Part shown: one piece after another, positions 2 to 64,000 of the stretch | Layout of the letters: every line of letters starts with the position of its first letter | Numbering within the stretch: the first letter of the stretch is position 1 | DNA from: Corynebacterium pilosum DSM 20521 = CIP 103422 | GTDB lineage: Bacteria; Actinomycetota; Actinomycetes; Mycobacteriales; Mycobacteriaceae | Length of the DNA: 64,000 bases | Assembly (NCBI RefSeq): GCF_000373805.1 | Contig: NZ_KB892468.1 | Coordinates: 62,189-126,188 of the forward strand | Direction of reading: 5' to 3' | The notes under the pieces: model-generated | The model's database searches: none | The model's input: only the letters and a program-made list of their open reading frames with translations | Told to the model about the DNA's origin: nothing | Position numbers and translations under genes: made by a program

Positions 2-196
2 ACCTATGTGGGCACCGCACTTCCGCTGTTGCTACTGGTCACGGTGTCGGAGGCGTCCTGGGTGCAGGTGCTCACCAACGATATTGTCGCCACCGAGCTG
101 CTGCGCTCCGCTGTGGGTGCTTTGGGCTTGACGTTGGCGGTGCCGGTGACCACCCTGATTGCCGCGTGGACGGTGCGGCCGGCTGCTCGTCGTTAA
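2..196 (+). CDS. YibE/F-like membrane protein, C-terminal fragment
   Basis: Only the last 64 residues lie in the window, and the frame is open from the first full codon, so the gene begins upstream. The fragment has two hydrophobic stretches (roughly codons 3-15 and 37-57) separated by a segment containing SEASWVQVLTNDIVATELLRS. This resembles the last membrane helices of the YibE/F family of multi-pass membrane proteins of unknown function. It ends RPAARR and stop, and its stop codon overlaps the stop of the convergent gene at 193. The family call rests on the tail alone and is moderate. Confidence 0.55.
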   Translation, partial: TYVGTALPLLLLVTVSEASWVQVLTNDIVATELLRSAVGALGLTLAVPVTTLIAAWTVRPAARR

Positions 197-543
197 GCGA
201 CAACCGTACCGTCGGGAAGCTTCACCTCGATGGTGGAATCCCCGGTGATATAAAACCCAACACCCAGTTCGCGCGCGAGCTGGCGGGCCGTCTCCTCCGC
301 ATCCGGGGCGTTGATGCGCGCCCACACGAAATCGCTGGCCACGAAATACTTCGTGCCGTCCCAACCGGGCGTGGGCTGGTACCGGGCCAGCAGCGTTTCG
401 TACCAGCGGGTGAGCATCGGGGTGGTGGCGCCGGAATCGTCATCAAACTCTGCTGCAAGGTCGAACCAGTGCAGAAAATCCTGGATGTCGCTGTGGGGGA
501 CTTGGTCCAGATCAAAAGCCACGTAGGCACGTCCAACGCTCAT
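193..543 (-). CDS. hypothetical protein, 116 aa
   Basis: I do not recognise this protein. It is small, soluble-looking and acidic, without a signal peptide or membrane segment. It has a tryptophan- and tyrosine-rich middle (LHWFDLAAEF, MLTRWYETLLARYQP) and an alternating beta-type C-terminus ending TIEVKLPDGTVVA. The ATG at 543 is chosen because the N-terminal MSVGRAYVAFDLDQV looks like a compact first strand. The frame stays open to 681, but that stretch is antisense to the end of the neighbouring ugd gene. The stop overlaps the stop of the YibE/F gene by convergent transcription. Confidence 0.65.
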   Translation of the reverse strand: MSVGRAYVAFDLDQVPHSDIQDFLHWFDLAAEFDDDSGATTPMLTRWYETLLARYQPTPGWDGTKYFVASDFVWARINAPDAEETARQLARELGVGFYITGDSTIEVKLPDGTVVA

Positions 544-574
544 GGTGAGCCATCTTAGCCCCGCAGCCCGATTC

Positions 575-1900
575 TTACAGCGAACGGCCCAGCGCCCACA
601 CCTGCCAGCCGGCGTCCTGCCACGCCTGCACCGGCAGCACGTTCCGTCCATCGAGGATGCGAGCGTGTTCCACCAGCTCACGGGCGCGGACCGGGTCCAG
701 CTCCTTGAACTCGGCCCACTCGGTGGCCAGGATTACCAGCTGGGCGCCCTCCAGGGCATCCTCGGTGCTCTCCGCGTAGTCCAAGGTGGGGAAGTTTTTG
801 GCGGCGTTGCCCATGGCCTGTGGGTCATAGACCTTCACCGCGGCACCTGCCAGGGACAGCTGGCCCGCCACCGCCAGGGCTGGAGAATCGCGCACGTCGT
901 CCGAATTCGGTTTGAACGCCGCGCCCAGCACCGTGATGCGATGCCCCAGCAAGCCGCCCAAGATTTCGCGGGACATTTCCACCACGCGGTCGCGGCGGCG
1001 CATATTAATCGCGTCGACCTCGCGCAGGAAGGTCAGCGCCTGGTCGGCGCCCAGCTCGCCGGCGCGGGCCATGAAGGCGCGGATATCTTTTGGCAGACAA
1101 CCACCACCGAAACCGAGGCCTGCGCCTAAAAATTTGCGGCCAATTCGGTCGTCATAACCGATGGCGTCCGCCAGCTGAGTCACGTCCGCGCCTGCGGCCT
1201 CACAGACCTCGCTGACGGCGTTGATGAAGGAGATCTTGGTGGCCAAGAATGCGTTCGCGGAGACCTTCACCAGCTCAGCGGTGGCCAGGTCGGTGACCAA
1301 GAAAGGCGTGTCATTCTCTAACGGGGAGGCGTAGATCTCGCGGGCGACCTCGTCGGCACGCGATCCCTCCCGAATGCCCAACACGATGCGGTCCGGCTCA
1401 ATCGTGTCCTTGACAGCGTAGCCTTCGCGCAGGAATTCGGGATTCCAAGCGATTTCCACAGTCGTGCCCGGTGCGGAGAGCTCGTCGGCACGCTCCTGCA
1501 AAGCGGCAGCGGTGCCGACGGGGACGGTGGACTTGCCGAAGATGATGTGCTCGCCCTTCAGCAGGGGCACCAGTGATTCGATAACGGCGAACACGTATGA
1601 GGTGTCCGCGGCGTAAGAGCCGCGCTGCTGCGGGGTGCCCACGCCCAGGAAGTGGATATTGGCGAACTCGGCGGCGCGCGCGTAGTCAGTGGTGAAGTCA
1701 AGGCGCCCAGCGGACAGGTTGCGCTCGAGGACCTCCGGCAGGCCCGGTTCATAAAACGGCACGCGGCCGGCGGCCAGCTCGTCGATCTTGTGCTGGTCCA
1801 CGTCCACGCCGAGCACCTCGTGGCCCAGTTCTGCCATGCATGCGGCGTGGGTGGCGCCTAAGTATCCAGTTCCAATGACTGCCATCTTCATGCCAGCCAT
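575..1900 (-). CDS. ugd: UDP-glucose 6-dehydrogenase
   Basis: The enzyme oxidises UDP-glucose to UDP-glucuronate with two NAD+ in the cytoplasm, supplying nucleotide sugar for envelope polysaccharide. The N-terminal Rossmann motif is GTGYLG near residue 10. The central segment contains WNPEFLREG near 152. The catalytic cysteine lies in GFGGGCLPKD (about Cys268). The C-terminal UDP-binding domain contains GAAFKPNSDDVRDSP. At 441 aa it has the usual family length. The ATG at 1900 has a GGTGGG ribosome-binding sequence at good spacing; the ATG nine bases downstream is possible. dcd lies upstream on the same strand. Confidence 0.93.
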   Translation of the reverse strand: MAGMKMAVIGTGYLGATHAACMAELGHEVLGVDVDQHKIDELAAGRVPFYEPGLPEVLERNLSAGRLDFTTDYARAAEFANIHFLGVGTPQQRGSYAADTSYVFAVIESLVPLLKGEHIIFGKSTVPVGTAAALQERADELSAPGTTVEIAWNPEFLREGYAVKDTIEPDRIVLGIREGSRADEVAREIYASPLENDTPFLVTDLATAELVKVSANAFLATKISFINAVSEVCEAAGADVTQLADAIGYDDRIGRKFLGAGLGFGGGCLPKDIRAFMARAGELGADQALTFLREVDAINMRRRDRVVEMSREILGGLLGHRITVLGAAFKPNSDDVRDSPALAVAGQLSLAGAAVKVYDPQAMGNAAKNFPTLDYAESTEDALEGAQLVILATEWAEFKELDPVRARELVEHARILDGRNVLPVQAWQDAGWQVWALGRSL

Positions 1901-1943
1901 TATTGCCCACCTGGCGCAGTTTGGCAGGGCGAGCTACGGGCCA

Positions 1944-2513
1944 CTACTGGTCGCGGAAGTTCAGGTAGTACTTCGACGGGGTCGGGCCACGCTGGCCCTG
2001 ATACTTCGAGCCCAGCGCCCCGGTCCCGTACGGCACTTCCGCCGGCGAGGACATCTGGAACAGCGCCAGCTGGCCCACCTTCATGCCGGGATACAGCACG
2101 ATCGGCAAATTGGCCACATTCGACAGCTCGAGGGTGATGTATCCGGAAAAGCCGGGGTCGATGAAGCCTGCCGTCGAGTGCGTGAGCAGCCCCAGGCGGC
2201 CTAACGACGATTTCCCCTCCAAACGCCCCGCCAAATGTGCAGGGAGGGTGAACTTCTCAAACGTGGCACCCAGCACGAACTCGCCGGGGTGTAAGACGAA
2301 GGCCTCGTCGTCAGGCACCTCCACCAGCGTGGTCAGGTCTTCCATCTCCCGCTTCGGGTCGATGTGCGTGTAGCGCGAGTTATTGAACACGCGGAAATAT
2401 TTGTCCAAGCGCACGTCCACGCTGGAGGGTTGGACCAAGGCCTCGTCGTAAGGCTCGATGCCGAGGTCGCCGGAGCTGATGGCGTCGCGAATGTCATGGT
2501 CAGAAAGAATCAC
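1944..2513 (-). CDS. dcd: dCTP deaminase, probably bifunctional (dUMP-forming)
   Basis: The protein converts dCTP to dUTP and, in close relatives, on to dUMP, feeding thymidylate synthesis. At 189 aa it is full length. Conserved blocks are [12 protein letters not shown] (28-37), [11 protein letters not shown] (72-82), [20 protein letters not shown] (98-116) and [12 protein letters not shown], with the catalytic Glu near 129. The HSTAG region and the C-terminal [13 protein letters not shown] are nearly those recalled from the M. tuberculosis enzyme, which has both deaminase and dUTPase activity; bifunctionality here is inferred. It lies between tRNA-Gly and ugd and is transcribed away from the tRNA. 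Confidence 0.95.
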
Positions 2514-2578
2514 AAGGTCCAGTCTACGGCAGGGCCATTTTCGCGTGGCCAGGACCGAGTGCTAAACTCTCCTACATT

Positions 2579-2652
2579 GCCGGCGTAGTTTAGTGGTAGA
2601 ACATCAGCTTCCCAAGCTGAGAGTGCGAGTTCGATTCTCGTCGCCGGCTCCA
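2579..2652 (+). tRNA. tRNA-Gly (anticodon CCC)
   Basis: A 74-base cloverleaf folds completely. The acceptor GCCGGCG pairs with CGCCGGC, followed by T and an encoded CCA. The anticodon stem TCAGC/GCTGA encloses the loop TTCCCAA, so the anticodon is CCC reading GGG codons. The T arm is GCGAG-TTCGATT-CTCGT and the D arm contains TAGTGGTAGAA. A weak -10-like TAAACT lies 11 bases upstream at 2563-2568. Confidence 0.97.
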
Positions 2653-2662
2653 TGTGATCAGT

Positions 2663-2710
2663 AGGCCTCACCGGCCTAGAACAGTGTTCTAGGCCGGTGA
2701 GGCCTTCTTC
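2663..2710 (+). terminator. long perfect hairpin after tRNA-Gly
   Basis: Two perfectly complementary 21-base arms (2663-2683 and 2685-2705) are separated by a single base at 2684. The arms begin AGGCCTCACCGG and end CTAGAACA. The right arm is followed by TCTTC, a poor U-tract. The position 10 bases after the tRNA 3' end suggests a transcription terminator, unusually long for that role. Confidence 0.6.
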
Positions 2711-2984
2711 GTGGGCGGGTGGTGTTCCGGAGTGTTGGTAGGGCCTGCTCGGCTTGGTACGCCGCGCCGCAGGCTTTCACATAAGTAACTAAACCTTCGG
2801 ATGCTTCGAGCTATCTTTCCTCAGCACCACGGGGGTTGATTTTAGGGGTTAACAATCTTCACTAGATCTTCACCTAGAGCTGTGGCGTAGCAATGACATT
2901 GCCATTATCTTGGCAACTGTTGATTAACGCTGCCAACCACGTAAACGTCCGGGAGTGCCCCTCACAAAATCAAGGATTCGAACC
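2711..2984. other. intergenic region without a recognisable gene
   Basis: No convincing ORF is seen. The stretch holds a tandem near-repeat ATCTTCACTAG/ATCTTCACCTAG (about 2859-2880), and a short inverted repeat GCCA...TGGC near 2904-2916. An AAGGA ribosome-binding sequence about nine bases before the ATG at 2985 is the only gene-start signal. Confidence 0.5.
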
Positions 2985-3481
2985 ATGCTCACCGCTATCG
3001 TCGTAGCCGAAATGGCATTTTGGGTCTGCCTGTTCCTAGGGTCGCCATTCGGTACGGTCTAAAACTTCCCAAGCTCGGGATCGCGTTCCTCATCGCAACG
3101 CCGTTGATTGACCTAGTACTTCTAGGTTTTTCTTACGTATCTCTCCGCGAGACAGGTCAAGCACAATTTATGCATGGCTTCGCCGCATTCTACATTGCAT
3201 TTTCTATCGTATTCGGGCGTGACATCATCAACGCGATGGACCGTCGATTCTCGCACACAGCATCAGGACGGGTCTCCGAAAGTGACAGTCGTGACAATTT
3301 GAAAAAATGTGTCATCGCGTGCGCCATCACTGCCGTCCTTCTTCTATCCGGAATGGTAGTCGCCGGACTCGATGGAAGCTTTTGGCTCGTTTACTGGATT
3401 ATTGTCGTGGTTTTTATGCCCATCATGTGGTGGGGGTTCGACCGATTCCTGCAGCGACACAAGGGTGCGAAGAGCAACTAG
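2985..3481 (+). pseudogene. frameshifted small membrane protein
   Basis: Two frames together make one plausible protein. The first starts at ATG 2985, after an AAGGA site, reads MLTAIVVAEMAFWVCLFLG and stops at 3062. The second is open from about 3020 to 3481 and continues VAIRYGLKLPKLG and IATPLIDLVLL, giving about 150 aa with four to five hydrophobic segments and a basic C-terminus. The join needs a one-base loss, or two-base gain, near 3035-3045. From memory, corynebacteria have an intact small membrane protein family starting this way, so I infer a disrupted gene. A sequencing error or programmed frameshift is not excluded. Function is unknown. Confidence 0.6.
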
Positions 3482-3695
3482 CATCTCGACGATAAGCCTT
3501 AAGACTTACGCCATTCCCGAATGCTTGCTCGAAAGTTTTCATGGTCGGAGCCATTCAATTTGATAGAGATATTCACAGTTATCCCCTAAATAATTGTGCT
3601 CGATTTAACAGGGAAACAATATGGCCGTACTATTAGTTGCTGGGCACAGGTATCGCGAAAGGTTCGCGTAACCATTCATTTGGAGAAAGAGTGCT

Positions 3696-3977
3696 ATGAC
3701 TAACCAATCCACTCGGGTGGAGCCGCCCGTGGCATATGAGCCACGACAGCTCGAACCCTTTGAGTTCCGGGAGGAGACCATCGCGAAGTGGTCTCCTCTA
3801 CTTGTGAAGCTGACGTGGGCTGCCATCATTATTGGCGCCATCGTCGGCATGATCTTCTTCTGGGGCGTCGGCGACGTATTCGGCCAGGACGTGGGCACCC
3901 TCGTGTGGGTGTTGACCATGGGTCTTGCCACCGCGTTGATGTTCCTTCGCCAACTGATGCTGGCGGAAAGGGAGTAA
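3696..3977 (+). CDS. small membrane protein, 93 aa
   Basis: I do not recognise a named family. A soluble N-terminus of about 38 residues (rich in Pro, Glu and Arg) is followed by two predicted transmembrane helices, about 39-57 and 67-87, ending LRQLMLAERE. A ribosome-binding GGAGAAAG precedes the ATG at 3696. The next gene starts eight bases after its stop, so the two are almost certainly co-transcribed and may act together in the membrane. Confidence 0.75.
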   Translation: MTNQSTRVEPPVAYEPRQLEPFEFREETIAKWSPLLVKLTWAAIIIGAIVGMIFFWGVGDVFGQDVGTLVWVLTMGLATALMFLRQLMLAERE

Positions 3978-3984
3978 CACAACC

Positions 3985-4707
3985 ATGTTGATGCAAGGCA
4001 TTACTTACAACACCACCATGGGCCTGATCGTGGGCATTATCATGATCCTGGTTCCCATCTTCATGCAGTCCGCTGCGACCCGCACCGGACGCTCTATCTC
4101 CGGTTTTGGCTGGGCATTCGTCTTCCTCGGCGCGTTCCTGGGCATCACCGGTATGCACATGACTTTGACGTGGCCGCTCGAGCAGATCGAGGGCGCATTC
4201 TGCTGTGCCGTCGATAACGTCACCTTCGGTGAGCCTGCTGCGTTCTACGGCATCCTCACCTTCATCGCGGGTATTGCAATCATCCGCGCTGAGGAGAAGG
4301 CTGACCAGGGCCTGCGCGCGCTTGACCTCGTCGCCACGCTTCGTCCGCTGCTGTACGTCGCTGCAATTGGCGGCTTCGGCCTGATCCTGTTCGGCATCGC
4401 TGGCCTGCACTTCGGCCAGTGGCGCCCGCCGGGCATTGAACCGGTGGCCCGACTACTTGAAGGCCAGCTGATCGAACCGCTCATGGTGTTCTCCATGTAC
4501 GTGGGCACCGGCGTGGTTGCGCTGCTGTCGCCTTTCGCGGTGACCAGCAAGAAGGTCAACAAAATCTTCACCGTGCTGATCTGGTTCTTCGGCATGATGT
4601 GGATCGTGCTTGGCCTGACACTGTTCTACGGCCACGTGGGCTTCTTCCCATACGCCTACAACCAGCCTGAGCAGTACCCGGACACGCTCGTGTTCCCGTG
4701 GGAGTAG
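3985..4707 (+). CDS. DUF981-like multi-pass membrane protein
   Basis: This 240-residue protein has about seven hydrophobic segments with short loops. It contains a conserved-looking GITGMHMTLTWPL and FGEPAAFYG region and a C-terminal GHVGFFPYAYNQP segment. The layout and motifs fit the DUF981 family found in corynebacteria, whose function is unknown. ATG 3985 is preceded by GGAG at about ten bases; ATG 3991 is an alternative. It is the second gene of a two-gene unit and is followed by a terminator at 4731. Confidence 0.75.
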   Translation: MLMQGITYNTTMGLIVGIIMILVPIFMQSAATRTGRSISGFGWAFVFLGAFLGITGMHMTLTWPLEQIEGAFCCAVDNVTFGEPAAFYGILTFIAGIAIIRAEEKADQGLRALDLVATLRPLLYVAAIGGFGLILFGIAGLHFGQWRPPGIEPVARLLEGQLIEPLMVFSMYVGTGVVALLSPFAVTSKKVNKIFTVLIWFFGMMWIVLGLTLFYGHVGFFPYAYNQPEQYPDTLVFPWE

Positions 4708-4730
4708 GGTAACTGCGTTACCGACTTTTG

Positions 4731-4766
4731 AGCCGGCTTGCGATTGAGTTCGTATGCCGGCTTTTT
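4731..4766 (+). terminator. Rho-independent terminator
   Basis: AGCCGGC (4731-4737) pairs with GCCGGCT (4756-4762) across an 18-base loop and is followed by a T run. It lies 24 bases after the DUF981-like gene and also separates that unit from the convergent ATPase/nuclease pair. Confidence 0.75.
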
Positions 4767-4843
4767 ACATCTTTCTTGAAGTGCGCACATTGCCGACGAG
4801 TGACTTGGGGTTGTCCGCGTGACCACCAGCAGTCAGCATTAAC

Positions 4844-5428
4844 CTAGAGAATGACTGCCCGATAGTTGATCGACCCGTTCCTACCTTGTGATAGCTTGCG
4901 CGGATCATCCACATCGTCTGCTTTGAACTGGGAGCCACGTTTGAATTGATCCGAATAGGATTGCTGAAAAGTGATCCATAAAAACCGCGTTTCCACTCCC
5001 GCCAGATCAATATCTACGCCATCAAAATGCCACATCAACGACGCCATGTAATCAGCAATTGCACGACCACCCTTGAGCTGAAGCACAACGTCTGTTGCGT
5101 GACCGCCCGTCGTTCCTAACTTAAGCTCGATAAACGTTAGGAGATGATTAATGGGATCAACTAACAGATAGTCGCATCGCCGACCATAGGGCTTTCCTCC
5201 CCCAGTCTGAACAAAGGCCCTGTTTAGATCGAAAGAATCCAGCTTAACCGCTATCAAGGACTCTGGCACGTCGGTAAGCCGGACGAAACGTTCCCCCTTT
5301 TTGTCATCCACCTCGCTTAAGTGAATGTGGTACTGCCCTTGGGATCGACCTGTGGCCTCCGCCAGCACCACATCATCCGGCTGGATCACCTCTACTATGC
5401 GCTTAGCAAAGCGCTCGACTTTAGCCAC
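4844..5428 (-). CDS. putative PD-(D/E)XK nuclease-like protein coupled to an ATPase
   Basis: The 194-residue protein has no named match that I recognise. Its middle reads CDYLLVD (Asp86) then FIELKLG (Glu101, Lys103), then LQLKGGRAIADYM (Gln117), the D...ExK...Q order typical of PD-(D/E)XK nucleases. The GTG at 5428 is chosen because it overlaps the stop of the upstream ATPase (GTGGCTAA), which implies translational coupling. An earlier ATG at 5479 lies inside the ATPase. There is no signal peptide. The pairing of ATPase plus small nuclease suggests the effector of an anti-phage or anti-plasmid module. That role is inferred. Confidence 0.6.
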   Translation of the reverse strand: MAKVERFAKRIVEVIQPDDVVLAEATGRSQGQYHIHLSEVDDKKGERFVRLTDVPESLIAVKLDSFDLNRAFVQTGGGKPYGRRCDYLLVDPINHLLTFIELKLGTTGGHATDVVLQLKGGRAIADYMASLMWHFDGVDIDLAGVETRFLWITFQQSYSDQFKRGSQFKADDVDDPRKLSQGRNGSINYRAVIL

Positions 5429-6782
5429 CCCACACGACCTCGTCGAAAAGCCTATTTTGCCGAGCAATAGTCCCGTCAAAGAAAGGGGTGTGGATGCCCT
5501 TGTGGGGCGAAACCTCAGCTTTCTTCAGAGACGAAACGCCATCCTGCAATTCCGAATATCCCACTCGAATGTCGTCGGGGTTCAGACTAGCTACGCCTTG
5601 GTACTCCTCAGGCCATTCCTCCTTCGAATCCAGCACAGTAAGGATAGACAGCTCTCGAAGGAGGTAGTCACTGTGAGTAGTCAAGAAAACACTTACTCCA
5701 GCGTCTACCAAACGAACGAGCAACCGCGCCATGAGAACCTGGTTATCTGGGTGGAGGTTTAGTTCCGGTTCATCGATCACAATCCACGCTCCAGGCCGCG
5801 CGTGCCAGGTGACAAACTCGGCTAGCTCAAAAAGGGACCTAGCGGTACTCGAAGTGGACGACATTGGTAGGTGTACATCACTGTCCTTGGGCGCAAAAGT
5901 ATAACTGCCGTCCTCGAAATGGAATTGCCCACCTGACATGCGATGAATCAGGTCGATCATTTTTCCTGCTTCAGGCACCGGTTTCATAAAAGCACGGAAG
6001 TTCTTATCCTGTAAACGTCGGAATTGATCGAGATTATCCTCCACAGCTGAGGGCCAAGGAGTGGTTGAAAGCTCGGCAGCGGTACCACCGTTGGTCACTC
6101 GGAACTTTTCCACCATTTCAGAGCGACCGTAATCAATGTCCGACTGAAACGTGTACAACCCAACCCGCTCAGAGGTCAGGACGTAGGGCATCCGCGACGG
6201 CCACGCCGCGAGAAGACCAAGAAGTCGCTGCACAAACCCGCACATGTATTCCTCCGCCGAACTGTCATTTCCAGGCTGGTCTGTATCCAGACGATTGGAT
6301 TGTTTGGTCAGGGTGATGTCCGGATCATCCGCATCGCTGATCTGGAGGTTCAGGCTGAAGTTACCGAAATTAGTCCCAGGGATATACTGTCCGCTCTTTA
6401 TCCGTTGAAGAGCGGTCCCGAGAAGCTCCCCTTCTTCAGGCACAAACCTGATTGACTCTTTGCTAGTTCCACGATCGATGCCTCGTAGACCAGCCTCGAG
6501 AGCTGCTTCAAATGAAAGATGGAAAAAATCAGCAAGCTCAGAGAGCTTGACCGACGACCTACCCACTGCTGAAAGTTCTTCCGCCATCGTCCGAGTGACA
6601 GACTCATCAACGGGTGAGAAAAAACCAACACTGTTAGGCCAAGTGGTTGCTTTGAGCGCCGAATACACAGCATGCGCAAGATAGGTTTTGCCGGAACTGT
6701 TTGGCCCGGCAAGAACATTGAGTTTTCGCAAATCCCAGGAAGCCTGCTTTATCGGCCCTAGATTTTCCACGTGTATGCGCAT
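5421..6782 (-). CDS. AAA/ABC-type ATPase (AAA_15/21-like), putative defence sensor
   Basis: This 453-residue cytoplasmic ATPase has Walker A GPNSSGKT (26-33), a Walker B/D-loop VIDEPELNLHP (about 335-345), an H-loop TTHSD (His370) and a signature-like SSTSSTARS upstream. This places it with OLD/RecF/AAA_15-type ATPases found in defence systems. It lacks a C-terminal TOPRIM domain, ending instead in about 80 residues of unknown fold, so any nuclease function must come from the partner at 4844-5428. The gene is visibly less GC-rich than its neighbours and opposes the flanking units, consistent with acquisition. Confidence 0.8.
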   Translation of the reverse strand: MRIHVENLGPIKQASWDLRKLNVLAGPNSSGKTYLAHAVYSALKATTWPNSVGFFSPVDESVTRTMAEELSAVGRSSVKLSELADFFHLSFEAALEAGLRGIDRGTSKESIRFVPEEGELLGTALQRIKSGQYIPGTNFGNFSLNLQISDADDPDITLTKQSNRLDTDQPGNDSSAEEYMCGFVQRLLGLLAAWPSRMPYVLTSERVGLYTFQSDIDYGRSEMVEKFRVTNGGTAAELSTTPWPSAVEDNLDQFRRLQDKNFRAFMKPVPEAGKMIDLIHRMSGGQFHFEDGSYTFAPKDSDVHLPMSSTSSTARSLFELAEFVTWHARPGAWIVIDEPELNLHPDNQVLMARLLVRLVDAGVSVFLTTHSDYLLRELSILTVLDSKEEWPEEYQGVASLNPDDIRVGYSELQDGVSSLKKAEVSPHKGIHTPFFDGTIARQNRLFDEVVWGG

Positions 6783-6786
6783 GTGC

Positions 6787-6987
6787 TCAGATTAACACTG
6801 ACAAAACGTACTTCAGCGGGTACAACCATATCCAGCGGTTATACGCTTGACTGTTGTAACGCTTAAGATCGCACGTCGCGTTCAGGGAACCATCAGAGTC
6901 CCGGGGCGCGAAAAACTCGCACTCCCACCAAACATGCAGGTCGTTTACATGTTGAGCGATTACACATAGGAAGTTGGACGTGACCAA
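6787..6987 (-). CDS. possible small gene or remnant upstream of the ATPase, 66 aa
   Basis: The frame opens at a TTG (6987) preceded by AGGA at very short spacing. It ends only four bases before the ATPase start, which favours a co-transcribed leader gene. The protein is aromatic-rich (VWWECEFF, YNRWIWLYPLKY) with no recognisable domain. It could equally be the tail of a truncated gene whose front was lost. Confidence is low. Confidence 0.3.
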   Translation of the reverse strand: MVTSNFLCVIAQHVNDLHVWWECEFFAPRDSDGSLNATCDLKRYNSQAYNRWIWLYPLKYVLSVLI

Positions 6988-7103
6988 TTCCTGTCGCCGT
7001 CGACCGCTTGCGCCTTGTGTGCTCGGTGACTACAGTCTCCAACAAGATAACAATTTGATTACGAGATTTATACTCTTATCATTTATTAAGTAATGTCTAG
7101 ATT

Positions 7104-7120
7104 CGGTCCCTGCGGGACCG
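7104..7120 (+). other. short hairpin in leader of M23 peptidase gene
   Basis: CGGTCCC and GGGACCG form a seven-base stem around TGC, about 40 bases before the start of the M23 gene. A -10-like TATACT lies at 7069-7074. I could not recognise a known riboswitch here, and no T-run follows the stem. Confidence 0.35.
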
Positions 7121-7159
7121 CGTGACACTTTGAGAAGAACCCTGAAGAGAGAAGGCCCC

Positions 7160-7987
7160 ATGCGTCTGAACACTCGACCTACCGCCGGAGGCAAGCACCG
7201 CAAGGTTACCCCTTCCCGTACCAAGGGTCGCGTCGCACTTGTTGCTGCAGTCGCATCCACGGTGTCGTCGGCCGGCATTGGCGCCGCTGCTGCTGCCACA
7301 CTGAGCGAGAAGGCAGACACCGGCGTTGACTTGGTCAACGACGCGGAAGATACCTCGGTTGACGCGTTCGCCGAGGAAACCACGCCTCAAATCCTGACGA
7401 TTAGCGAGTACAAGCCAGCACATGACTTGGACGGCCAGCTTGGCAAGGCTGTGGAGTACAACAACCAGCGCGCCGCTGAGGCTCAGGCAGAAGCGGATCG
7501 TCTTGCTGCAGAGGCGGCTGCCGCCGAGCAGGCCGCGGCTGCGGAGGCTGAGAAGGCTCGCCTAGAAGCAGCTGGAATCACGACTGATTTCATTACCGGC
7601 GCGGCAGTTGTCAAGCCAGCTCAAGGCGTGTTCACCTCGGGCTTTGGCCCGCGCTGGGGAACGATGCACTCTGGGGTCGACATCGCGAATGCGGTGGGCA
7701 CTCCGATCCTTGCGGCCATGGCTGGCACGGTCATCGATTCGGGCCCGGCGCAGGGCTACGGCCAGTGGATCCGCATTCAGCACGACGATGGCTCGATGAC
7801 TATTTATGGCCACATGGAGACGCTGAACGTTTCCGTCGGTCAGCGCGTTGCAGCTGGCCAGCAGATCGCCGGTATGGGTAACCGTGGTTTTTCCACCGGT
7901 TCCCACCTGCACTTTGAGTACCACCCGTCGGGCAACGGTGCGGTGGACCCAGTGCCGTGGTTCGCGGCCAACGGCATCAGCCTCTAG
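7160..7987 (+). CDS. M23-family peptidoglycan metallopeptidase
   Basis: The product is a secreted or envelope-anchored protein of 275 aa. A basic N-terminus is followed by a hydrophobic helix (about 26-47). Next comes an Ala/Glu-rich coiled coil (about 100-145) and a C-terminal LytM/M23 domain with HSGVD and GSHLHFE zinc-ligand motifs. Such enzymes hydrolyse peptide cross-links in peptidoglycan. The ATG at 7160 has GAGAGAAGG at good spacing, so the upstream in-frame extension is rejected. The stop overlaps the stop of the convergent GH15 gene. Confidence 0.9.
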   Translation: MRLNTRPTAGGKHRKVTPSRTKGRVALVAAVASTVSSAGIGAAAAATLSEKADTGVDLVNDAEDTSVDAFAEETTPQILTISEYKPAHDLDGQLGKAVEYNNQRAAEAQAEADRLAAEAAAAEQAAAAEAEKARLEAAGITTDFITGAAVVKPAQGVFTSGFGPRWGTMHSGVDIANAVGTPILAAMAGTVIDSGPAQGYGQWIRIQHDDGSMTIYGHMETLNVSVGQRVAAGQQIAGMGNRGFSTGSHLHFEYHPSGNGAVDPVPWFAANGISL

Positions 7988-9783: not shown

Positions 9784-9849
9784 GTCACCCACTCTAGGGA
9801 AAAATAGCTTTCCGCGCGCAGCAATCGATTCGTGCCTACGGTTGAGACC

Positions 9850-14879: not shown

Positions 14880-14885
14880 CCTCCT

Positions 14886-51812: not shown

Positions 51813-51832
51813 GTTCATTGCCTTTCGTTAGC

Positions 51833-51893
51833 GGGAAAGTTTAAGTTTCCCAGTTGTTAACCTGCCGTTAACTTTACCTTTGCGGTAGCTAGT
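51833..51893 (-). promoter_or_regulatory. promoter with identical GTTAAC operator pair (51225 gene)
   Basis: The minus strand shows TTGCGT, a 17-base spacer and TAAAGT, the -10 again overlapping GTTAAC (51867-51872). A second GTTAAC at 51856-51861 is also 11 bases away. The 22-base stretch from TAAAG to TTAACA is the same as in the promoter at 51043. An inverted repeat GGGAAA/TTTCCC (51833-51851) lies in the leader. Confidence 0.6.
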
Positions 51894-52024
51894 ACGCAAG
51901 CAGTGCTTAACGACGACAGTCTCGCCATCTGTGATGTTACTCACCTCCTATTTCGCACGTACGTACGATGGGCTAGAATGAAGTCTATACATATCGGGGA
52001 CTGCATCAGGGGGTGTAGCAATCA

Positions 52025-54471
<2,447 letters not shown>

Positions 54472-54576
54472 TTAAGGCTAGCGAATCAAAGCCTTTTTCA
54501 CCGGCCAACACGGCCGCGAGGGTGCCAACAAAGCACTATCTTTGCCCCAGGACTATCATTATTCACTTTCGTGCCT

Positions 54577-54582
54577 TACAAT
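54577..54582 (+). promoter_or_regulatory. candidate -10 box of the amidase gene
   Basis: TACAAT lies 52 bases before the GTG start at 54635 in the divergent region with glf. No good -35 is seen, which is common in corynebacteria. A CAGGAGC ribosome-binding sequence lies before the GTG. Confidence 0.35.
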
Positions 54583-54634
54583 TCATTTTGGTCTATTGCA
54601 ATAACACCAGTAACAATTTTCCAGGAGCTTTACC

Positions 54635-56575: not shown

Positions 56576-58047
56576 CTGAGGTTGTAGGACCGCCCCACGG
56601 CGTCCTCCCACTGAGCGATAAGCCGGTCCCGATCGGGGCCGGCCATTTCGCTTTCCCAGGCCCGCGTCGCACCGAGGGACAGTGGCTCGTCGATAAGCCC
56701 AGCCCCGATCCCCGCCGCCGACGCCGCGCCCATCACCGTGGTTTCGATATTGCCGGGCCGGATCACACGCGCGTCGAGCACATCGGCCTGCATCTGCATC
56801 AGCAGCGCATTGTCCGTCATGCCGCCGTCCACGCGCAGCTCGTCGACACGCGCCCCGCTATCGGCCTCCATGGCGCGCGCGACCTCGAGAGTCTGCAGGC
56901 AGGTTGCCTCAAGTGCGGCGCGGGCGATGTGTCGCTTATCGACGAAGCGGGTCAGACCAGTGATCACGCCGCGAGCGTCGGCGCGCCACCGCGGAGCGAA
57001 CAGCCCAGAAAATGCCGGGACGATGGTCACCCCGGCGGAATCTGGTACCTGGGCTGCCAAGGTTTCGGATTCGGCCGCGGTACGCAGCATGCCCATCTGG
57101 TCACGCAGCCACTGGATCAATGAACCGCCGACGGCAACCGAGCCCTCGATCGCGTACACGGGTGCTTCGCCGGCGCGCTGGTACGCCACCGTGGTCAGCA
57201 AACCGTGTTCTGAAAAATGCGGCACAGCACCGGTGTTGAGCAGCATGAACAAACCGGTGCCGTAGGTCATTTTGCCCTCGCCTTCGCGCAGGCAGTTCTG
57301 CCCAAACAAGGCGGCCTGCTGGTCGCCGAGCACCCCGGTGATCGGCACCCCGGACAGAGTCCCGCGCTTGCGTACGCGGGCCACCTCCCCGATGCTGGGC
57401 ACGATAGTTGGCAGCATTGTCGTCGGAACGCCCAGCTCCGCGCAGATGTCCTCGTCCCACTGGCAGGTTGCGATGTCCATCAGCAGCGTGCGGGAGGCGT
57501 TGGTCACGTCGGTGACGTGCATGGCGTCGCGGCTCTCGTCGCCACGCGCACCGCCGGTCAACTGCCAGATCAGCCACGTGTCGATGGTGCCGGCGAGAAG
57601 TTCCCCGCGCTCGGCGCGTTCGCGGGCGCCCTCCACGTTGTCGAGGATCCAGGCCCACTTCGGCCCGGCGGGATAGGAATTCGCCAGCAGGCCGGTGCGC
57701 GACATATAACGGTTCTGGTCATCGCTTCCCGTGCGTGTGTCCTGCCACACGATCGCGTTATAAACAGGTTGACCTGTGGTTTTATCCCACACCACGGCCG
57801 TTTCACGCTGGTTCGTCACCCCGAGCGCGCTGATCTGGGAGGCCGGAACGTCCACCTCCACCATCGCAGCTGAGACCGCGCGGCGCACGTTACGCCACAG
57901 TTCAAGCGGGTCATGTTCCACCCAGCCCTCGCGCGGCATGATCTGCTCGTGCTCATACTGGGCGCTGGCCACCACCTCCCCGTCGGTAGCGGTGATGATG
58001 CAGCGCGTCGAGGTCGTGCCTTGGTCAATGGCGGCGATCAGTGTCAT
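56572..58047 (-). CDS. glpK: glycerol kinase
   Basis: A FGGY-family enzyme of 491 aa that phosphorylates glycerol to sn-glycerol-3-phosphate. The ATP-binding phosphate-1 motif is [22 protein letters not shown] and [22 protein letters not shown] are family signatures. The C-terminal adenosine region is [21 protein letters not shown]. No glpF or glpD gene is adjacent. It precedes the amidase convergently. Confidence 0.96.
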
Positions 58048-58890: not shown

Positions 58891-59757
58891 TTACTCCTTT
58901 GTTTGCGCGTCTCTTCCTAGCTTACGCGCACGCTTCGCCTTCTTTTCGGCCTTGATCTTCGCATCGATCTCGCGCGCCTCCTCCAACGTGGGCGCGGACC
59001 CACCCATCGACGCGGGTAACCAGTCCTCACCGTCTTCGAAGGGGCCAAACCGGCGCGAGTATTCGGCGCGTGATTCGTCGAGAAGCTCCTGCATCGACGC
59101 TTTGAGCTTATCGACGACCGCATCGGGCTCTCCGGAAGTGTCAATGGGGGCGCCCAGGCGAATAATGATCGGGAAGTGATTGCGTCCGAGCTGCTTCTTT
59201 CGACCCTTGGTCCACAGCCTTTGGCTGCCCCAAATCACCATGGGGATCAGGGGCGCGTCGGCCTGCTGGGCGATGCGGGCGGCACCATTTTTGAAATCTG
59301 ACAGCTCGAAAGAACGTGAAATCGTCGACTCAGGGAAGATACCCACCAGCTGGCCATCCTCAATGCGCTCGACGGCTTCGTCCACGCTGGAGCCACCGTT
59401 GGAGCGGTCCACCGACACGTGTTTCATCCCGCGCATCGCATGCCCGATGATGGGGATGTCGAAGACTTCCTTCTTCGCCATGAACCGGACCATGCGCTTG
59501 CCGCGCAAAAAGCCCGCAATGCCGCCAAAAATGAAGTCGTAGTAGCCGGTGTGGTTGATCGCGATGATGGCGCCACCGGTCGTCGGCAAGTTCTCTGTCC
59601 CATACACCGTGATGCGGATGCCCTGCGCCCGCATCAGATTCTTCAAGCGGCGGATCACCCACTGGTAAAAAGGCTCTGAGGCTTCCGTGGGGTGGTCAGC
59701 GACCGGTTCCAGCGTTGCCAGAACCTCGAACAGTCCATCTACTAAGCGGTACTCCAT
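58891..59757 (-). CDS. 1-acyl-glycerol-3-phosphate acyltransferase (PlsC family)
   Basis: A 288-residue membrane-associated acyltransferase with the NHX4D box INHTGYYDFIF near residue 69 and FPESTISRSFELSDF, in which Ser replaces the usual Gly. It probably acts in phospholipid or related acyl transfer. It is equivalent by position to Rv3814c-Rv3816c. The C-terminus is Lys/Arg-rich. It starts directly upstream of the HAD gene and directly after serS. Confidence 0.88.
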   Translation of the reverse strand: MEYRLVDGLFEVLATLEPVADHPTEASEPFYQWVIRRLKNLMRAQGIRITVYGTENLPTTGGAIIAINHTGYYDFIFGGIAGFLRGKRMVRFMAKKEVFDIPIIGHAMRGMKHVSVDRSNGGSSVDEAVERIEDGQLVGIFPESTISRSFELSDFKNGAARIAQQADAPLIPMVIWGSQRLWTKGRKKQLGRNHFPIIIRLGAPIDTSGEPDAVVDKLKASMQELLDESRAEYSRRFGPFEDGEDWLPASMGGSAPTLEEAREIDAKIKAEKKAKRARKLGRDAQTKE

Positions 59758-61017
59758 TTACTTAACCGGAGTGATCACGTCTTTGCCCATAAGTGGGCGC
59801 AGAGCCTCAGGCACGACGACGGAGCCGTCGGCCTGCTGGTTATTTTCCAGGATGGCGACCAGCCAGCGCGTGGTGGCCAGCGTGCCGTTGAGCGTGGCAA
59901 CGATCTGAGTCTTGCCCTCTGCGTCGCGGTAGCGGGTGTTCAGGCGGCGGCCCTGGAACGTGGTGCAGTTAGAGGTGGACGTGAGCTCGCGGTAGGTGCC
60001 CTGGGTGGGCACCCACGCCTCGGTATCGAACTTGCGGGCTGCCGACGCGCCAAGGTCACCACCGGCAACATCGATGACGCGGTAGGGAACCTCGACTGCT
60101 GCCAGCATTTCCTTTTCCAGCTGCAGCAGCTTCTGGTGCATCTCTTCGGCATCTTCCGGCTTGCAGTACACAAACATTTCCAGCTTGTCGAACTGGTGCA
60201 CGCGCAAGATGCCGCGGGTGTCCTTGCCGTAGGACCCGGCCTCGCGGCGGAAGCAGGACGACCAGCCTGCGTACAGGATGGGGCCGTCGGACAGGTCGAT
60301 GATCTCGTCCTGATGGTAACCAGCCAGCGCCACCTCAGAGGTGCCCACAAGGTAGAGGTCATCGCGCTCGAGGTAGTAAATCTCGTCCGAGTGGTCACCC
60401 AAAAAGCCGGTGCCCTGCATGATCTCCGGGCGCACCAGCACAGGTGGGATCATCAGCTTAAATCCGGCCTCGCGGGCCTTGGCCGCAGCCAGCTGCAACA
60501 TAGCCAGCTGCATCCAGGCGCCGTCGCCGGTGAGGTAGTAGAAGCGGGCGCCGCCGACCTTCGTGCCGCGCGCCATGTCGATCATGCCCAAAGACTCGCC
60601 CAGCTCAAGGTGGTCCTTTGGCTCAAAATCAAACTCCGGGATCTCGCCGATGTGTTCCAGCACCACGAAGTCATCCTCGCCACCAGCGGGTGCTCCTTCG
60701 ACGACATTGGAGAGCTTGTACTGCAGCTCCACCACGCGCTCTTCGGCGGCCTTCTGCTCCTCCTCGGCCTGCTTGACCTTGGCCTTGAGCTCATTAGAGC
60801 CTTCCAGCAGGGCTGGGCGGTCCTCGGGCGCGGCCTGCCCGATCTTCTTGCCAAACGCCTTTTGCTCACCACGCAGTGTGTCGGCGTTGGCGATGGCGGC
60901 GCGGCGCGCCTCGTCGGCGGAGAGCAGCTCGTCGACAAGCGCAGGGTCCTCCCCGCGGTTCTTCTGCGAATCGCGGACGCGGTCGGGGTTCTCACGGAGC
61001 ATTTTCAGATCAATCAC
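59758..61017 (-). CDS. serS: seryl-tRNA synthetase
   Basis: A class II synthetase of 419 aa. It has the N-terminal tRNA-binding coiled coil (about 30-105), then motif 2 [17 protein letters not shown] and motif 3 ending [15 protein letters not shown]. The GTG at 61017 gives [13 protein letters not shown], the conserved start; the ORF continues seven codons upstream without similarity. Zero bases separate it from the acyltransferase. No T-box leader is apparent. Confidence 0.96.
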
Positions 61018-61130: not shown

Positions 61131-61883
61131 ATGGATCGCGCCGCACCCGAACTTCCGAAACGGACCATCACCGATGGACCCGTGCCGAAGCACGCCCAGC
61201 TGCGCGCAATCCTCGAGCAACTCTGCGAACGGGAACTCTCACCGGGCGATCTCCTGCCAGGCGAACGCGTCCTCGAAGAAACCTACGGTGTCTCCCGCAT
61301 CACCGTACGGCGCGCAATTGGTGACCTGGTGGCGGCCGGCAAGCTGCGTCGCGTCCGCGGGAAAGGCACCTTCGTCGCGCCGAACCCCCTGGTCAGCAAG
61401 CTGCAACTTGCCTCTTTCTCTGAGGAGATGCGCGCGCAGAAGGTCGCGGCCTCGTCGAAAATCTTGCTCTCCGCACGCGCCACCGCCCCGGATAACGTGG
61501 GCGCATTTTTCAACACGGAACCTAGTCAAGAGCACATTCACCTGCGCCGCCTGCGGCTTGGCGACGGCGAACCCTACGCCATCGACGACGCCTGGTACAA
61601 CGGCCAACTCACGCCCGACCTGCTAGAAAATGACGTCTATAACTCCGTCTACACGCTTCTCGACGAAAACTACGGCCTCCCCGTAACCGAAGCCGACCAA
61701 ACCGTCACCGCCGTGGCCGCCGACGACCAGGCAGCCGCCCTCCTCGACGTCTCTCCCGGCAGCCCGTTGCTCCGCATCGTGCGCTTTGCGCGCTCCGGCG
61801 AGCACCCCGTCGAGCTGTGTTCGTCTGTGTACCGGACAGATAGGTACCGGCTGAATACTCGCGTAGGGCGCGGGCTTGAGTAG
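61131..61883 (+). CDS. GntR-family (HutC/UTRA) transcriptional regulator, possibly FarR
   Basis: A 250-residue regulator with an N-terminal winged helix (LLPGERVLEETYGVSRITVRR, about 45-68) and a C-terminal UTRA ligand-binding domain. It is divergent from serS, the position I recall for C. glutamicum FarR (cg3202); that name is tentative. ATG 61131 is chosen because of the leaderless promoter immediately upstream; upstream in-frame ATGs lie in the -10 box. It is followed ten bases later by the septum-formation gene. Confidence 0.8.
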   Translation: MDRAAPELPKRTITDGPVPKHAQLRAILEQLCERELSPGDLLPGERVLEETYGVSRITVRRAIGDLVAAGKLRRVRGKGTFVAPNPLVSKLQLASFSEEMRAQKVAASSKILLSARATAPDNVGAFFNTEPSQEHIHLRRLRLGDGEPYAIDDAWYNGQLTPDLLENDVYNSVYTLLDENYGLPVTEADQTVTAVAADDQAAALLDVSPGSPLLRIVRFARSGEHPVELCSSVYRTDRYRLNTRVGRGLE

Positions 61884-62969: not shown

Positions 62970-63313
62970 CGAAGGTCAGCGACGAAGTCTTTGAATCGCT
63001 TATCGACGACGCCCTGGACGAACTGCCCGAAGAGTTCGCCCAGCGGATGCGCAATGTCGTCGTCTTAGCCCGGCCCTATAACGAGGAGCGGCCGCACCTC
63101 CTAGGGCTCTTCGAGGGCGTGCCGCTACCGCAGCAGCACGCCAACCACACGGGCTTCTTACCTAACGCCATCTTCATCTATAAAGAGCCCCTCGAACGGT
63201 ACTCGCGTGATCTCGAGGAGCTGCGCCGCGAGGTCCGCGTCACCGTGTTGCACGAGGTGGGCCACTATTTCGGACTCGAGGAAGAGGACCTGCACCGCTT
63301 GGGCTACAGCTAG
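62966..63313 (+). CDS. zincin-like metallopeptidase (Rv3836-like)
   Basis: A small 115-residue protein of the minimal metallopeptidase family (PF06262 type). The zinc site is VTVLHEVGHYFGLEEEDL, with HExxH and a downstream Glu/Asp region, near residue 93. No signal peptide is seen. It overlaps the upstream gene by the GTGA junction, and its end overlaps the histidine-phosphatase end by four bases. Substrate is unknown. Confidence 0.87.
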   Translation: MTKVSDEVFESLIDDALDELPEEFAQRMRNVVVLARPYNEERPHLLGLFEGVPLPQQHANHTGFLPNAIFIYKEPLERYSRDLEELRREVRVTVLHEVGHYFGLEEEDLHRLGYS

Positions 63314-63906
63314 TTATCGCCCCAGCGCACCAGCTCCCACTGACCAAACGTGTCCGTGGGGTTGAGCACCACGAAGCGGCAGTTCGGCAGCGGGTTGCGG
63401 ACGGCGAATTTCGGATCGATGCCGGCTGCACGCACCGCAAACATTCTGATCGCCGCGCCGTGGGAGACCACGACAGCCGAGCTATCCTCACCCCGCAGCG
63501 CCTCTGCCACCCCACCTTGGTAGCGGTGCAAAAACTGGTGCGCGTCCTCACCACCGGGAATAGCCTGGTCAGAGCTGCCGTCGAACCACGAATGCACGAT
63601 GCCGTGATAGGACTCGTGCGCCTCGAAAGAATTCTGCATCTCATGCTCGCCCGCAGTAATTTCCTGCAGACCGGACACGGCGGGAATGTGATCGAAGAAG
63701 GGATCGAAAGCGAGCTGCCCGGTCTGGCGCGCACGCAGCGCCTCCGAGGTGACCACCGCGTTCGGGCCGTACAGATCCATCAGCTCGGGCCCGACCTCGC
63801 GGGCCTGCTGCTGGCCTAACTCCGTCAACGGCGCACCCGGCAGAGCGGTATCTAGCGCACGTGCCACATTGGAAGTGGTTTGGCCGTGGCGCAGCAGGAT
63901 GAGCAT
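63310..63906 (-). CDS. histidine phosphatase (phosphoglycerate-mutase-like, Rv3837c-like)
   Basis: A 198-residue enzyme with the catalytic RHG motif ILLRHGQTTSN, a Glu-containing second motif region in LQEITAGEHEM, and VVSHGAAIR (second catalytic His). It probably acts as a phosphatase. It starts immediately after the pheA stop (TAAATG), so it is likely in an operon with prephenate dehydratase. Confidence 0.9.
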   Translation of the reverse strand: MLILLRHGQTTSNVARALDTALPGAPLTELGQQQAREVGPELMDLYGPNAVVTSEALRARQTGQLAFDPFFDHIPAVSGLQEITAGEHEMQNSFEAHESYHGIVHSWFDGSSDQAIPGGEDAHQFLHRYQGGVAEALRGEDSSAVVVSHGAAIRMFAVRAAGIDPKFAVRNPLPNCRFVVLNPTDTFGQWELVRWGDN

Positions 63907-64000
63907 TTAGTGTCCTTCCCGGGCCTTCCGGACCCAATCAGTTGCTTCTGCAAGGCGGGCCTCATCGTCGATAAGCGAACTCTGGCTCTGGCTGGCAGCG
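63907..64000 (-). CDS. pheA: prephenate dehydratase PheA, C-terminal fragment
   Basis: Only the last 30 or so codons are present, reading SLIDDEARLAEATDWVRK, then AREGH and stop. This matches the C-terminal tail of corynebacterial PheA as I recall it, and the Rv3837c-Rv3838c order supports it. The enzyme makes phenylpyruvate in phenylalanine synthesis. Confidence 0.7.
   Translation of the reverse strand, partial: AASQSQSSLIDDEARLAEATDWVRKAREGH

Follow-up and report, generated by a model that had tools for sequence, protein, structure and literature searches.

The window, a stretch of 64,000 bp from Corynebacterium pilosum DSM 20521 = CIP 103422, carries 44 exact copies of GCTTNNCGACGA spread over positions 187-63976, whereas 100 dinucleotide-preserving shuffles gave a mean of 0.24 copies and a maximum of 1. 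According to our own simple gene caller, 37 of the 44 lie in genes, 5 are intergenic and 2 span gene ends; 25 are found on the minus strand and 19 on the plus strand, and 13 have AT in the centre. The initial annotation had reported at least 42 copies, far above chance, with a 23/19 split between orientations and an AT centre in 13, and these claims are borne out with the counts now obtained. It had also placed two copies across stop codons, in agreement with the two at gene ends, and two between genes, where five were found.

The commonest word, GCTTATCGACGA, occurs on the minus strand at 8270..8281, 53449..53460 and 56687..56698, antisense to genes at 16102..16113, 21442..21453 and 29875..29886 and between genes at 26143..26154 and 63965..63976; on the plus strand it is found at 62998..63009 and, antisense, at 35669..35680, 47933..47944, 56934..56945 and 59106..59117. 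The last of these forms an inverted pair with a copy of GCTTCTCGACGA at 59075..59086 (-), and GCTTCTCGACGA is also present at 15857..15868 (+), 33101..33112 (-), 41038..41049 (-) and 61655..61666 (+). GCTTGTCGACGA is located at 13935..13946 (+, antisense), 16556..16567 (+), 22106..22117 (-), 27490..27501 (+) and 60929..60940 (-), and GCTTGCCGACGA at 26444..26455 (+), 33284..33295 (+, antisense), 36970..36981 (-), 40782..40793 (+, antisense) and 56460..56471 (+). GCTTTACGACGA lies at 8438..8449, 11244..11255 and 31768..31779 (all -) and at 36334..36345 (+, antisense). Both copies spanning gene ends, 187..198 (-) and 51219..51230 (-), read GCTTAACGACGA, as does the intergenic copy at 51905..51916 (+), while GCTTTTCGACGA occupies 5440..5451 (-), 10428..10439 (+, intergenic) and 54366..54377 (+, antisense). 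The remaining copies are GCTTTCCGACGA at 20510..20521 (+) and 50121..50132 (-, intergenic), GCTTGACGACGA at 32453..32464 (-) and 44885..44896 (-), GCTTGGCGACGA at 12611..12622 (-) and GCTTTGCGACGA at 34763..34774 (-). A tolerated variant, GCGTNNCGACGA, adds 18 dispersed copies within 1350..57547, with first bases at 1350, 1482, 4328, 12925, 15208, 16307, 18292, 18826, 21735, 22395, 32169, 33146, 35965, 43015, 48438, 56840, 57420 and 57536.

A full-genome count against a background, which the initial annotation had proposed as a check, gave 779 + 814 = 1,593 copies of GCTTNNCGACGA in the 2,531,632 bases (35 contigs), compared with 7 + 22 = 29 for the pattern read backwards. By inspection, the word differs from its reverse complement. 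Variants with one base changed at C1, C6, G7, A8, C9 or G10 number 0-8 each against 317 exact copies; GCGTNNCGACGA is found 130 times in 464 kb, and the other 29 single-base variants 0-23 times each. Downstream of the intergenic copies C exceeds G by 207 to 95, as against 307 to 328 upstream (p 5e-9). The word is roughly the core of a longer signal, (C)GCTTNNCGACGA followed by a C-rich tail some 13-24 bases downstream.

The survey of 242 Corynebacterium genomes has shown that the motif is genus-wide, in two forms differing at one base (...CGACG and ...CGATG), while a single genome has a third motif of unrelated sequence; 177 genomes passed our cut for either form and 51 have neither. The initial annotation had framed the motif as a feature of one genome. 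No comparable excess was observed in 120 genomes of other genera, and none of the papers listed in our literature searches described the motif earlier. The two forms are largely exclusive: of the 14 genomes in which GCTTNNCGATGNC reaches 300 copies or more, G024 alone also holds at least 100 of GCTTNNCGACGA. They are not wholly so, since both counted words reach 91-137 copies in 15 genomes; in the one of these sampled (G106) the C form prevails in genes, 101 to 11. The unrelated motif is private to G012, with 1,106 copies there and at most 103 in any other genome. Four genomes other than that of C. pilosum were tested for location, and in each the motif is rarer between genes than within them: densities per kb were 0.05 and 0.52 in G001, 0.15 and 0.46 in G106, 0.26 and 0.64 in G024 and 0.36 and 0.60 in G012; uptake sequences of Gram-negatives are not known to be depleted between genes.

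Sites kept between related species have mostly switched at the dialect base: in two relatives all 9 aligned sites each did so, in others fewer. In a wider sample of 29 motif sites 15 carry T, 4 carry C and 10 another base, against 29 T, 46 C and 105 other where the same five bases stand outside the motif (T versus C, p 0.002). The switching base often occupies the third position of an Asp codon, which changes easily. Positions are conserved as well, 15 of 49 aligned copies being perfect at 70-75% identity where about 2 would be expected, and 12 of 27 sites of the T lineage lie where the relative has no motif, gains and losses not being told apart in this figure.

The motif is nearly absent from the phage DNA examined. 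A 41-kb prophage holds 1 of 47 copies though it makes up 41% of its stretch, a second long prophage holds none of 29 copies of the private motif and a remnant none of 37 (p 0.002); a fourth place, in G083, showed only a 10.8-kb gap. Three phage records (83 kb) contain no copy of GCTTNNCGACG, the motif density of the host having been measured for one of the three, and the third phage has one GCTTNNCGATG and one CGCGRCGTCA.

C. pilosum encodes ComEA, ComEC, DprA, TadA, TadB, a Flp-like pilin (Tad/Flp pilus) and a prepilin peptidase. Across the genus ComEC is present in 241 of 242 genomes and T2SSE matches exceed the cut-off in 235 of 242, while DprA and the prepilin peptidase were found in all the genomes tested for them (12/12 and 14/14). 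Presence of the motif does not follow from that of the machinery, as ComEC occurs in all 51 genomes lacking both forms and an over-cut-off T2SSE match in 50 of the 51; conversely, six genomes without such a match bear the motif, in assemblies of 30-480 contigs that are 53-99% complete. Comparison of candidate readers between T genomes and neighbouring C genomes, in small and incomplete sets, gave 0 discriminating columns for Flp, 3 for TadE-like and 1 for TadF-like proteins, with no convincing residue tracking the dialect. Among the papers listed in the literature searches none reported natural transformation of a Corynebacterium; Tad genes are needed for transformation of another actinobacterium, Micrococcus luteus (PMC4322843).

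An artefact of coding, by which a favoured peptide (Leu-x-Asp-Asp/Glu) written in favoured codons would generate the word, draws on the fact that one sense frame (CTT NNC GAC GAN) holds 166 of 275 genic copies in 464 kb of C. pilosum and 49 of 62 in G001. However, synonymous codon shuffling within genes (40 rounds, 504 kb of C. pilosum) abolished the excess of the GCTTNNCGACG core, from 247 to 10.3 sense and from 98 to 13.6 antisense copies, and lowered the sense copies likewise in G001 (48 to 1.9), G024 (49 to 1.3) and G106 (74 to 2.8); moreover, the density in C. pilosum is 0.68 per kb between genes and 0.67 within them. The shuffling refutes the artefact for the C. pilosum genome, and we regard it as extremely unlikely. 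The earlier claim that the motif is not a codon artefact survives the shuffling, but its argument from different frames loses weight, since a single sense frame predominates. The main rival, which we nonetheless hold to be unlikely, is a Chi-like recombination signal read within the cell by an end-resecting nuclease-helicase (AdnAB type in actinobacteria), so that DNA marked as self is repaired and not destroyed. Like Chi, the motif is a short genome-wide word that the host chromosome retains and the phage DNA examined almost lacks; its dialects could track changes of the enzyme, and a gene near the comEC locus of C. pilosum resembles AdnB. Since Chi-type signals are also rare in phages, the phage depletion fits an uptake signal and a Chi-like signal alike. 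Chi is, however, strongly biased to the leading strand and known Chi words are much shorter than the core and tail described here, whereas on 320 kb of one contig, where called genes divide 192 to 88 by strand, the strand richer in genes bears 118 copies and its complement 100 (p 0.25; leading strand presumed from the direction of the genes, not from a mapped origin and terminus). Strand totals are balanced genus-wide too (24,108 and 23,873), and the titles and abstract openings of the 8 listed of 9 papers on AdnAB and Chi show no such link for Corynebacterium. KOPS, the FtsK orienting sequence, is strongly polar towards the terminus, a polarity not seen on the same 320 kb, so that the initial judgement of KOPS and Chi as less likely without strand bias is supported for the DNA tested.

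A binding site for some abundant protein that organises the chromosome or associates with the nucleoid, retained because spaced sites are useful, would agree with copies lying about 1.5 kb apart on either strand in the stretches read and with the retention of sites at orthologous places. It is quite unlikely, as the placement is no more even than random (CV 1.12, random 0.88-1.14), both forms are missing from 51 of the 242 genomes, and a one-base switch together with the wholly different motif of one genome fits a structural protein poorly. Mutational or repair drive of the HIP1 kind, in which a modification enzyme, biased repair or gene conversion makes a useless word and the C-to-T dialect could stem from deamination of methylated C, would account for a dialect change that is a C-T transition beside G and for the frequency of C-to-T outside the motif (29 of 75 otherwise conserved words). 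Yet the switch within the motif exceeds this background (15 of 19, p 0.002), the T lineage has sites where the relative lacks the motif (12 of 27, gains and losses not separated), and no restriction-modification type is a good match for a non-palindromic word of 10 bases that has a long tail; we regard this explanation as very unlikely.

Among known dispersed words, HIP1 of cyanobacteria is likewise very frequent and variable between related species. It is an 8-base palindrome, and the parallel drawn in the initial annotation fails on this one feature because the Corynebacterium word, which has a tail and one-base dialects, is not palindromic. The USS of Pasteurellaceae consists of a core with a base-biased tail downstream, the same anatomy as found here, although the USS tail is AT-rich and that of Corynebacterium C-rich. 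Unlike the USS, the motif shows no preference for the space between convergent genes (0.65 per kb there, as against 0.71 and 0.74). Its copy number is similar to that of the USS, which counts about 1,300 copies in H. influenzae (PMC5217627). The DUS of Neisseriaceae (Frye et al. 2013, PMC3630211) is also a non-palindromic word of about 10 bases in one to several thousand copies, and its dialects, as here, track lineages and are set apart by one to a few bases; one genome has two dialects side by side and some related genomes have none. The Neisseria dialects share a CTG core in that source, whereas GCTTNNCGACGA, by inspection, has no fixed CTG, and its sequence is unrelated. The Corynebacterium motif further differs from the DUS in its C-rich tail, the Tad/Flp pilus and the unrelated motif of one congener. 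The gene set of M. luteus is similar (tad cluster, comEA/comEC and a gene for prepilin peptidase that lies apart from the tad cluster), but it has two tad clusters where C. pilosum has a single T2SSE match over the cut-off; the term 'uptake sequence' is absent from the paper on Tad-dependent transformation of M. luteus (PMC4322843).

The interpretation of the initial annotation is partly supported as a whole, and the parallel with DNA uptake sequences that it named is well supported by the anatomy and the comparative evidence: no polarity seen, the dialects, the near-absence from the phages examined and the presence of competence and Tad genes. The motif looks like a tag by which a species recognises its own DNA, and this recognition probably acts during DNA uptake. 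We consider it fairly probable that the motif is a self-signal resembling DNA uptake sequences, serving natural transformation through the Tad/Flp pilus, ComEA and ComEC, and we infer that the uptake machinery includes its reader, that the cells can be transformed and that they prefer tagged DNA on uptake. By means of the tag, Corynebacterium cells would favour DNA of their own kind in natural transformation; import would proceed through the Tad/Flp pilus with ComEA and ComEC, and tagged fragments would be imported and recombined more often. As a proposed consequence, point mutations would create copies in situ, which would then spread and persist at conserved positions, and a changed preference of the reader may convert a genome to a new dialect. 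For the wider proposition we find the balance even: that corynebacteria, as Gram-positives with two membranes, possess throughout the genus an uptake-signal system whose reader is a Tad/Flp competence pilus, with two one-base dialects switched repeatedly and an unrelated replacement signal in at least one species. Such switches and replacement would divide the genus, by sequence tags, into DNA-exchange communities.

This kind of signal is so far known from very different bacteria, and we know of no uptake-signal system outside Gram-negatives. Even with an intracellular reader, the one-base switch at hundreds of sites, a figure extrapolated from sampled stretches and whole-genome counts, would make the coevolution of a DNA-reading protein and its genome directly testable, and missing tags are in any case useful as a marker of recently acquired DNA. 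If the motif is an uptake signal, natural transformation would be a selective, hitherto unrecognised means by which many Corynebacterium species, both human-associated and environmental, exchange genes, the dialects would predict which species exchange DNA, and self-signals would have evolved independently in another two-membraned bacterial group; a simple route to the genetic tractability of harmless members of the genus would also be suggested.

The initial annotation described a dispersed word as massively over-represented, and 44 exact copies of GCTTNNCGACGA were indeed found in the window against 0.24 expected. The count over the full genome of C. pilosum (2.53 Mb, 35 contigs), which that annotation had proposed, gave 1,593 copies, 779 and 814 by orientation, against 29 of the reversed word. 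In 464 kb of this genome, which hold 317 copies of the motif, 30 one-base variants were counted, of which GCGTNNCGACGA is the sole common one with 130 copies and the remaining 29 have 0-23 copies each. The core positions C1, C6, G7, A8, C9 and G10 are near-invariant (0-8 copies per variant), the outer G and A show a slight tolerance of change, and the two free positions are non-random, with G at the second in only 4%. The signal is longer than the 12-bp word first seen and includes a flank base and a downstream tail. A C lies directly before the core in 81% of the intergenic copies (n=37). The sequence downstream of the core is C-rich and G-poor, most strongly so in intergenic copies at offsets +15, +16, +21 and +22 relative to the first base of the core. 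As the ratio of C to G at +13 to +24 is 207:95 compared with 307:328 upstream (p 5e-9) in the intergenic copies alone, the tail is more than an effect of codon third positions. The intergenic consensus is approximately C GCTT WW CGACGA N C R C C N C N C C C.

Since 166 of the 275 genic copies were found in one sense frame, CTT NNC GAC GAN, synonymous codons were shuffled within each gene (504 kb, 40 rounds), preserving the proteins and the codon use. After shuffling, 10.3 sense copies of the core GCTTNNCGACG were left where 247 are observed, and 13.6 antisense copies where 98 are, which rules out a codon or peptide artefact, as had been argued from the window; no excess appeared in the same test in two motif-free genomes (G007 and G011). 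With genes called by our own simple script, the motif density of this genome is 0.68 per kb between genes and 0.67 per kb within them. In convergent, tandem and divergent gaps it is 0.65, 0.71 and 0.74 per kb, and this even density argues against a terminator or promoter role; a terminator role of the kind found in Gram-negatives was rejected because convergent gaps show no concentration of the motif. Among the pairs less than 50 bases apart 7 of 8 are inverted, yet by our own arithmetic such pairs occur in the expected number. In 320 contiguous kb the lack of strand bias noticed earlier was borne out, with 118 and 100 copies by strand (p 0.25) where the called genes are divided 192 to 88, polarity being judged here against gene direction. 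Spacing over the same 320 kb agrees with random placement (CV of the gaps 1.12, random 0.88-1.14) except for one gap, a motif-free stretch of 16.4 kb at C1:176449-192803 on contig C1 (L017-L018), compared with random maxima of median 8.4 kb and 95% limit 12.1 kb. This stretch carries conserved genes, presumably purB and the cytochrome bc1/aa3 cluster of the respiratory chain by their resemblance, and was rejected as a genomic island; strong selection on the protein code may be responsible for the loss of the motif here.

Among 242 Corynebacterium genomes the number of GCTTNNCGACGA copies ranges from 1 to 1,593, this genome being the highest. G001, a genome poor in this C form (with CGACG), carries GCTTNNCGATG instead, a T form (with CGATG); GCTTNNCGATGNC reaches 300 copies or more in 14 genomes, among them G024 with 1,090. 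By our own cuts on the counts of GCTTNNCGACGA (present at 60 or more, absent below 30) and GCTTNNCGATGNC (present at 100 or more, absence also requiring fewer than 60), a form is present in 177 genomes, both are absent from 51, and 14 are intermediate. Both counted words are held by 15 genomes, at 91-137 copies; in one of these, G106, the C form prevails in genes (101 versus 11) because the usual next base is C, not A, and in G002 and G005 any base is accepted at that next position. G012 has few copies of either form and 1,106 copies of an unrelated private motif, CGCGRCGTCA (about 0.54 per kb), with a flank that is A/T-biased at its start; no other genome of the 242 has more than 103 copies of this word. 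Outside the genus, 120 genomes of the same order were counted, and the core GCTTNNCGAYG shows no comparable excess in them, its ratio to the reversed control being at most 2.05 by our own arithmetic compared with 17.6 here. From 80 named or metagenome loci fetched, 61 were counted (7-22 kb each); the C form was found, among others, in loci of C. lubricantis, C. glaucum, C. mucifaciens, C. riegelii, C. striatum and C. tuberculostearicum and the T form in that of C. sp. J010B-136, and the motif is almost absent from those of C. mastitidis, two Candidatus species, Rhodococcus and Nocardia. No clear dialect was seen in samples of 20-100 kb from G007, G043 and G049.

Competing words in G008, G011, G021 and G029 were set aside, as on inspection they look like codon or protein-repeat artefacts. 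In L068 and L070, stretches of G021 and G029, near-identical internal repeats such as TCACCT...AGGTGA or GGTGACCTTCAC recur every 240-500 bases or so and perhaps belong to repetitive surface proteins. In this genome a perfect palindrome, TTCTGCAGCTGCAGAA, which was not found in the window, has 15 copies in 320 kb of contig C1 (L009-L024), partly clustered, with four within about 600 bases in L010; it is possibly a repeat element.

Individual sites are kept between species. In comparisons with seven C-dialect relatives at 70-75% DNA identity, 15 of the 49 aligned copies of this genome are intact to the base, where about 2 are expected; the significance test covers six of these comparisons (42 pairs, 15 perfect), the seventh giving 0 of 7, and the comparisons share the same own copies and so are not independent. 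The copies not kept are mostly several bases off, and in two further comparisons, with T-dialect species, 0 of 2 copies are kept. In a tree of the helicase beside the tad genes (77 rows, quick method; G036, having no long helicase match, left out), this genome groups with C. lubricantis and G022, and the T form needs five changes, at least two of them forced by well-supported branches. Over the tad region G001 (T) has 78-79% identity to C. tuberculostearicum relatives (C), and its aligned T sites are perfect C-dialect sites in 9 of 9 cases in L161 and again in L162, in 7 of 10 and 7 of 9 in two loci of one species of the same clade (L134, L165), and in 6 of 9 and 5 of 9 in further loci of it; in C. 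striatum and C. flavescens, which are less closely related, the figures are 1 of 7 and 0 of 6. Wider sampling aligned 29 C-dialect sites of G106 with G001, which has a T word at 15 of them, a C word at 4 and another word at 10. Outside the motif the same five bases are unchanged in 46 cases, read CGATG in 29 and differ in some other way in 105; among otherwise conserved words the switch from C to T is commoner in the motif than outside it (p 0.002). Of 27 T sites of G001 aligned in the other direction, 14 have a C word in G106, 1 has a T word and 12 have something else, the last group being gains or losses counted together. Old sites have thus changed by a single base, and the two lineages also differ at additional sites.

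A capsid search of 18 motif-bearing genomes gave four places in three genomes, all of which were examined. A check of whether islands lack the motif showed near-absence from a prophage of about 41 kb in G100, which has 1 of 47 copies counted over 100 kb (p 5e-10). For the private motif of G012, the counts are 0 of 29 in a prophage of about 37 kb (p 2e-8) and 0 of 37 in a smaller element (p 0.002), the prophage limits being set by gene content and partly by the motif gap itself. The G100 prophage matches the neighbouring DNA in G+C content, and one of its ends carries an integrase-like gene. In G083 a gap of 10.8 kb over the capsid gene is unremarkable. From 24 Corynebacterium records matching a terminase query, three phages (39, 22 and 22 kb) were examined; GCTTNNCGACG is absent from all three, the counts covering the phage records alone, and one of them has one GCTTNNCGATG and one CGCGRCGTCA.

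In this genome comEA, comEC and holA are contiguous, and the tad cluster comprises ssd, tadA, tadB, a Flp-like pilin (DUF4244) and two small pilins with weak Pfam likeness to TadE/F, where ssd and holA are the names we take these genes to bear. About 5 kb from comEA-comEC, L055 (C30:13001-33000) holds a gene resembling AdnB, presumably the nuclease-helicase of that name, followed by the beginning of an AdnA-like gene. ComEC was matched in 241 of the 242 genomes and the T2SSE domain of the Tad-type ATPase, over the cut-off, in 235; DprA was found in 12 of 12 and a prepilin peptidase in 14 of 14 tested genomes. The one genome with no ComEC match, G185, is 90% complete and has 174 T-form copies; an assembly gap may explain the missing match, or the gene may have been lost recently. 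Transformation of Micrococcus luteus requires Tad genes, and tad clusters combined with ComEA/ComEC are frequent in actinobacteria, according to one report (PMC4322843). The machinery is near-universal in the genus and fails to explain which genomes have the motif: all 51 motif-free genomes encode ComEC and 50 have a T2SSE match, which is weak in 33 of the 51. With a best PF00437 E-value weaker than 1e-46 taken as weak, a cut picked after seeing the data, the weak group (38 genomes) has 33 genomes without the motif, 4 with it and 1 between, and the stronger group (197) has 167 with it, 17 without and 13 between (Fisher 2e-22 on clear cases); the comparison leaves out seven genomes in which no match passed the cut-off, six of them motif-bearing. 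The six motif-free genomes of the weak group whose tad region was read (G007, G018, G021, G049, G142 and G241; L123-L128) retain a divergent type of tadA and small pilin genes; in five of the six loci the first 85-100 PF00437 positions are unmatched by TadA, and the small pilins are altered. This link may be a clade effect of common ancestry, so the ATPase score is not counted as proof. A search for the reader protein by dialect-specific residues gave no convincing column, with pilin genes found in only some loci.

A long non-palindromic word with no visible polarity and with kept sites favours a self-DNA signal, as do the one-base switch at most kept sites, the other word in one genome and the near-absence from the phage DNA examined. 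The main rival, a Chi-like signal, is disfavoured by the absence of visible polarity and by how long the word is. No paper on GCTTNNCGACGA in Corynebacterium was found in the literature searched, many subscription papers and preprints lying outside it; for uptake sequences, competence, com genes, Tad pili and Chi in this genus the matches listed held no description, and a report beyond them is possible. In the available text of a paper on spaced motifs Corynebacterium is named only for CRISPR-related word pairs (PMC5217627). Among the known kinds of signal, uptake sequences match the motif on most points, including the dialects, which are also described for DUS (PMC3630211). The scarcity of the motif between genes in four other genomes counts against the uptake reading. 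Corynebacteria bear an outer mycolate membrane, so that DNA must pass two barriers, likewise in the Gram-negatives with known uptake signals. Judged from the sequences, the motif would fit best as a self-DNA signal of these bacteria, read by a protein whose taste can change.
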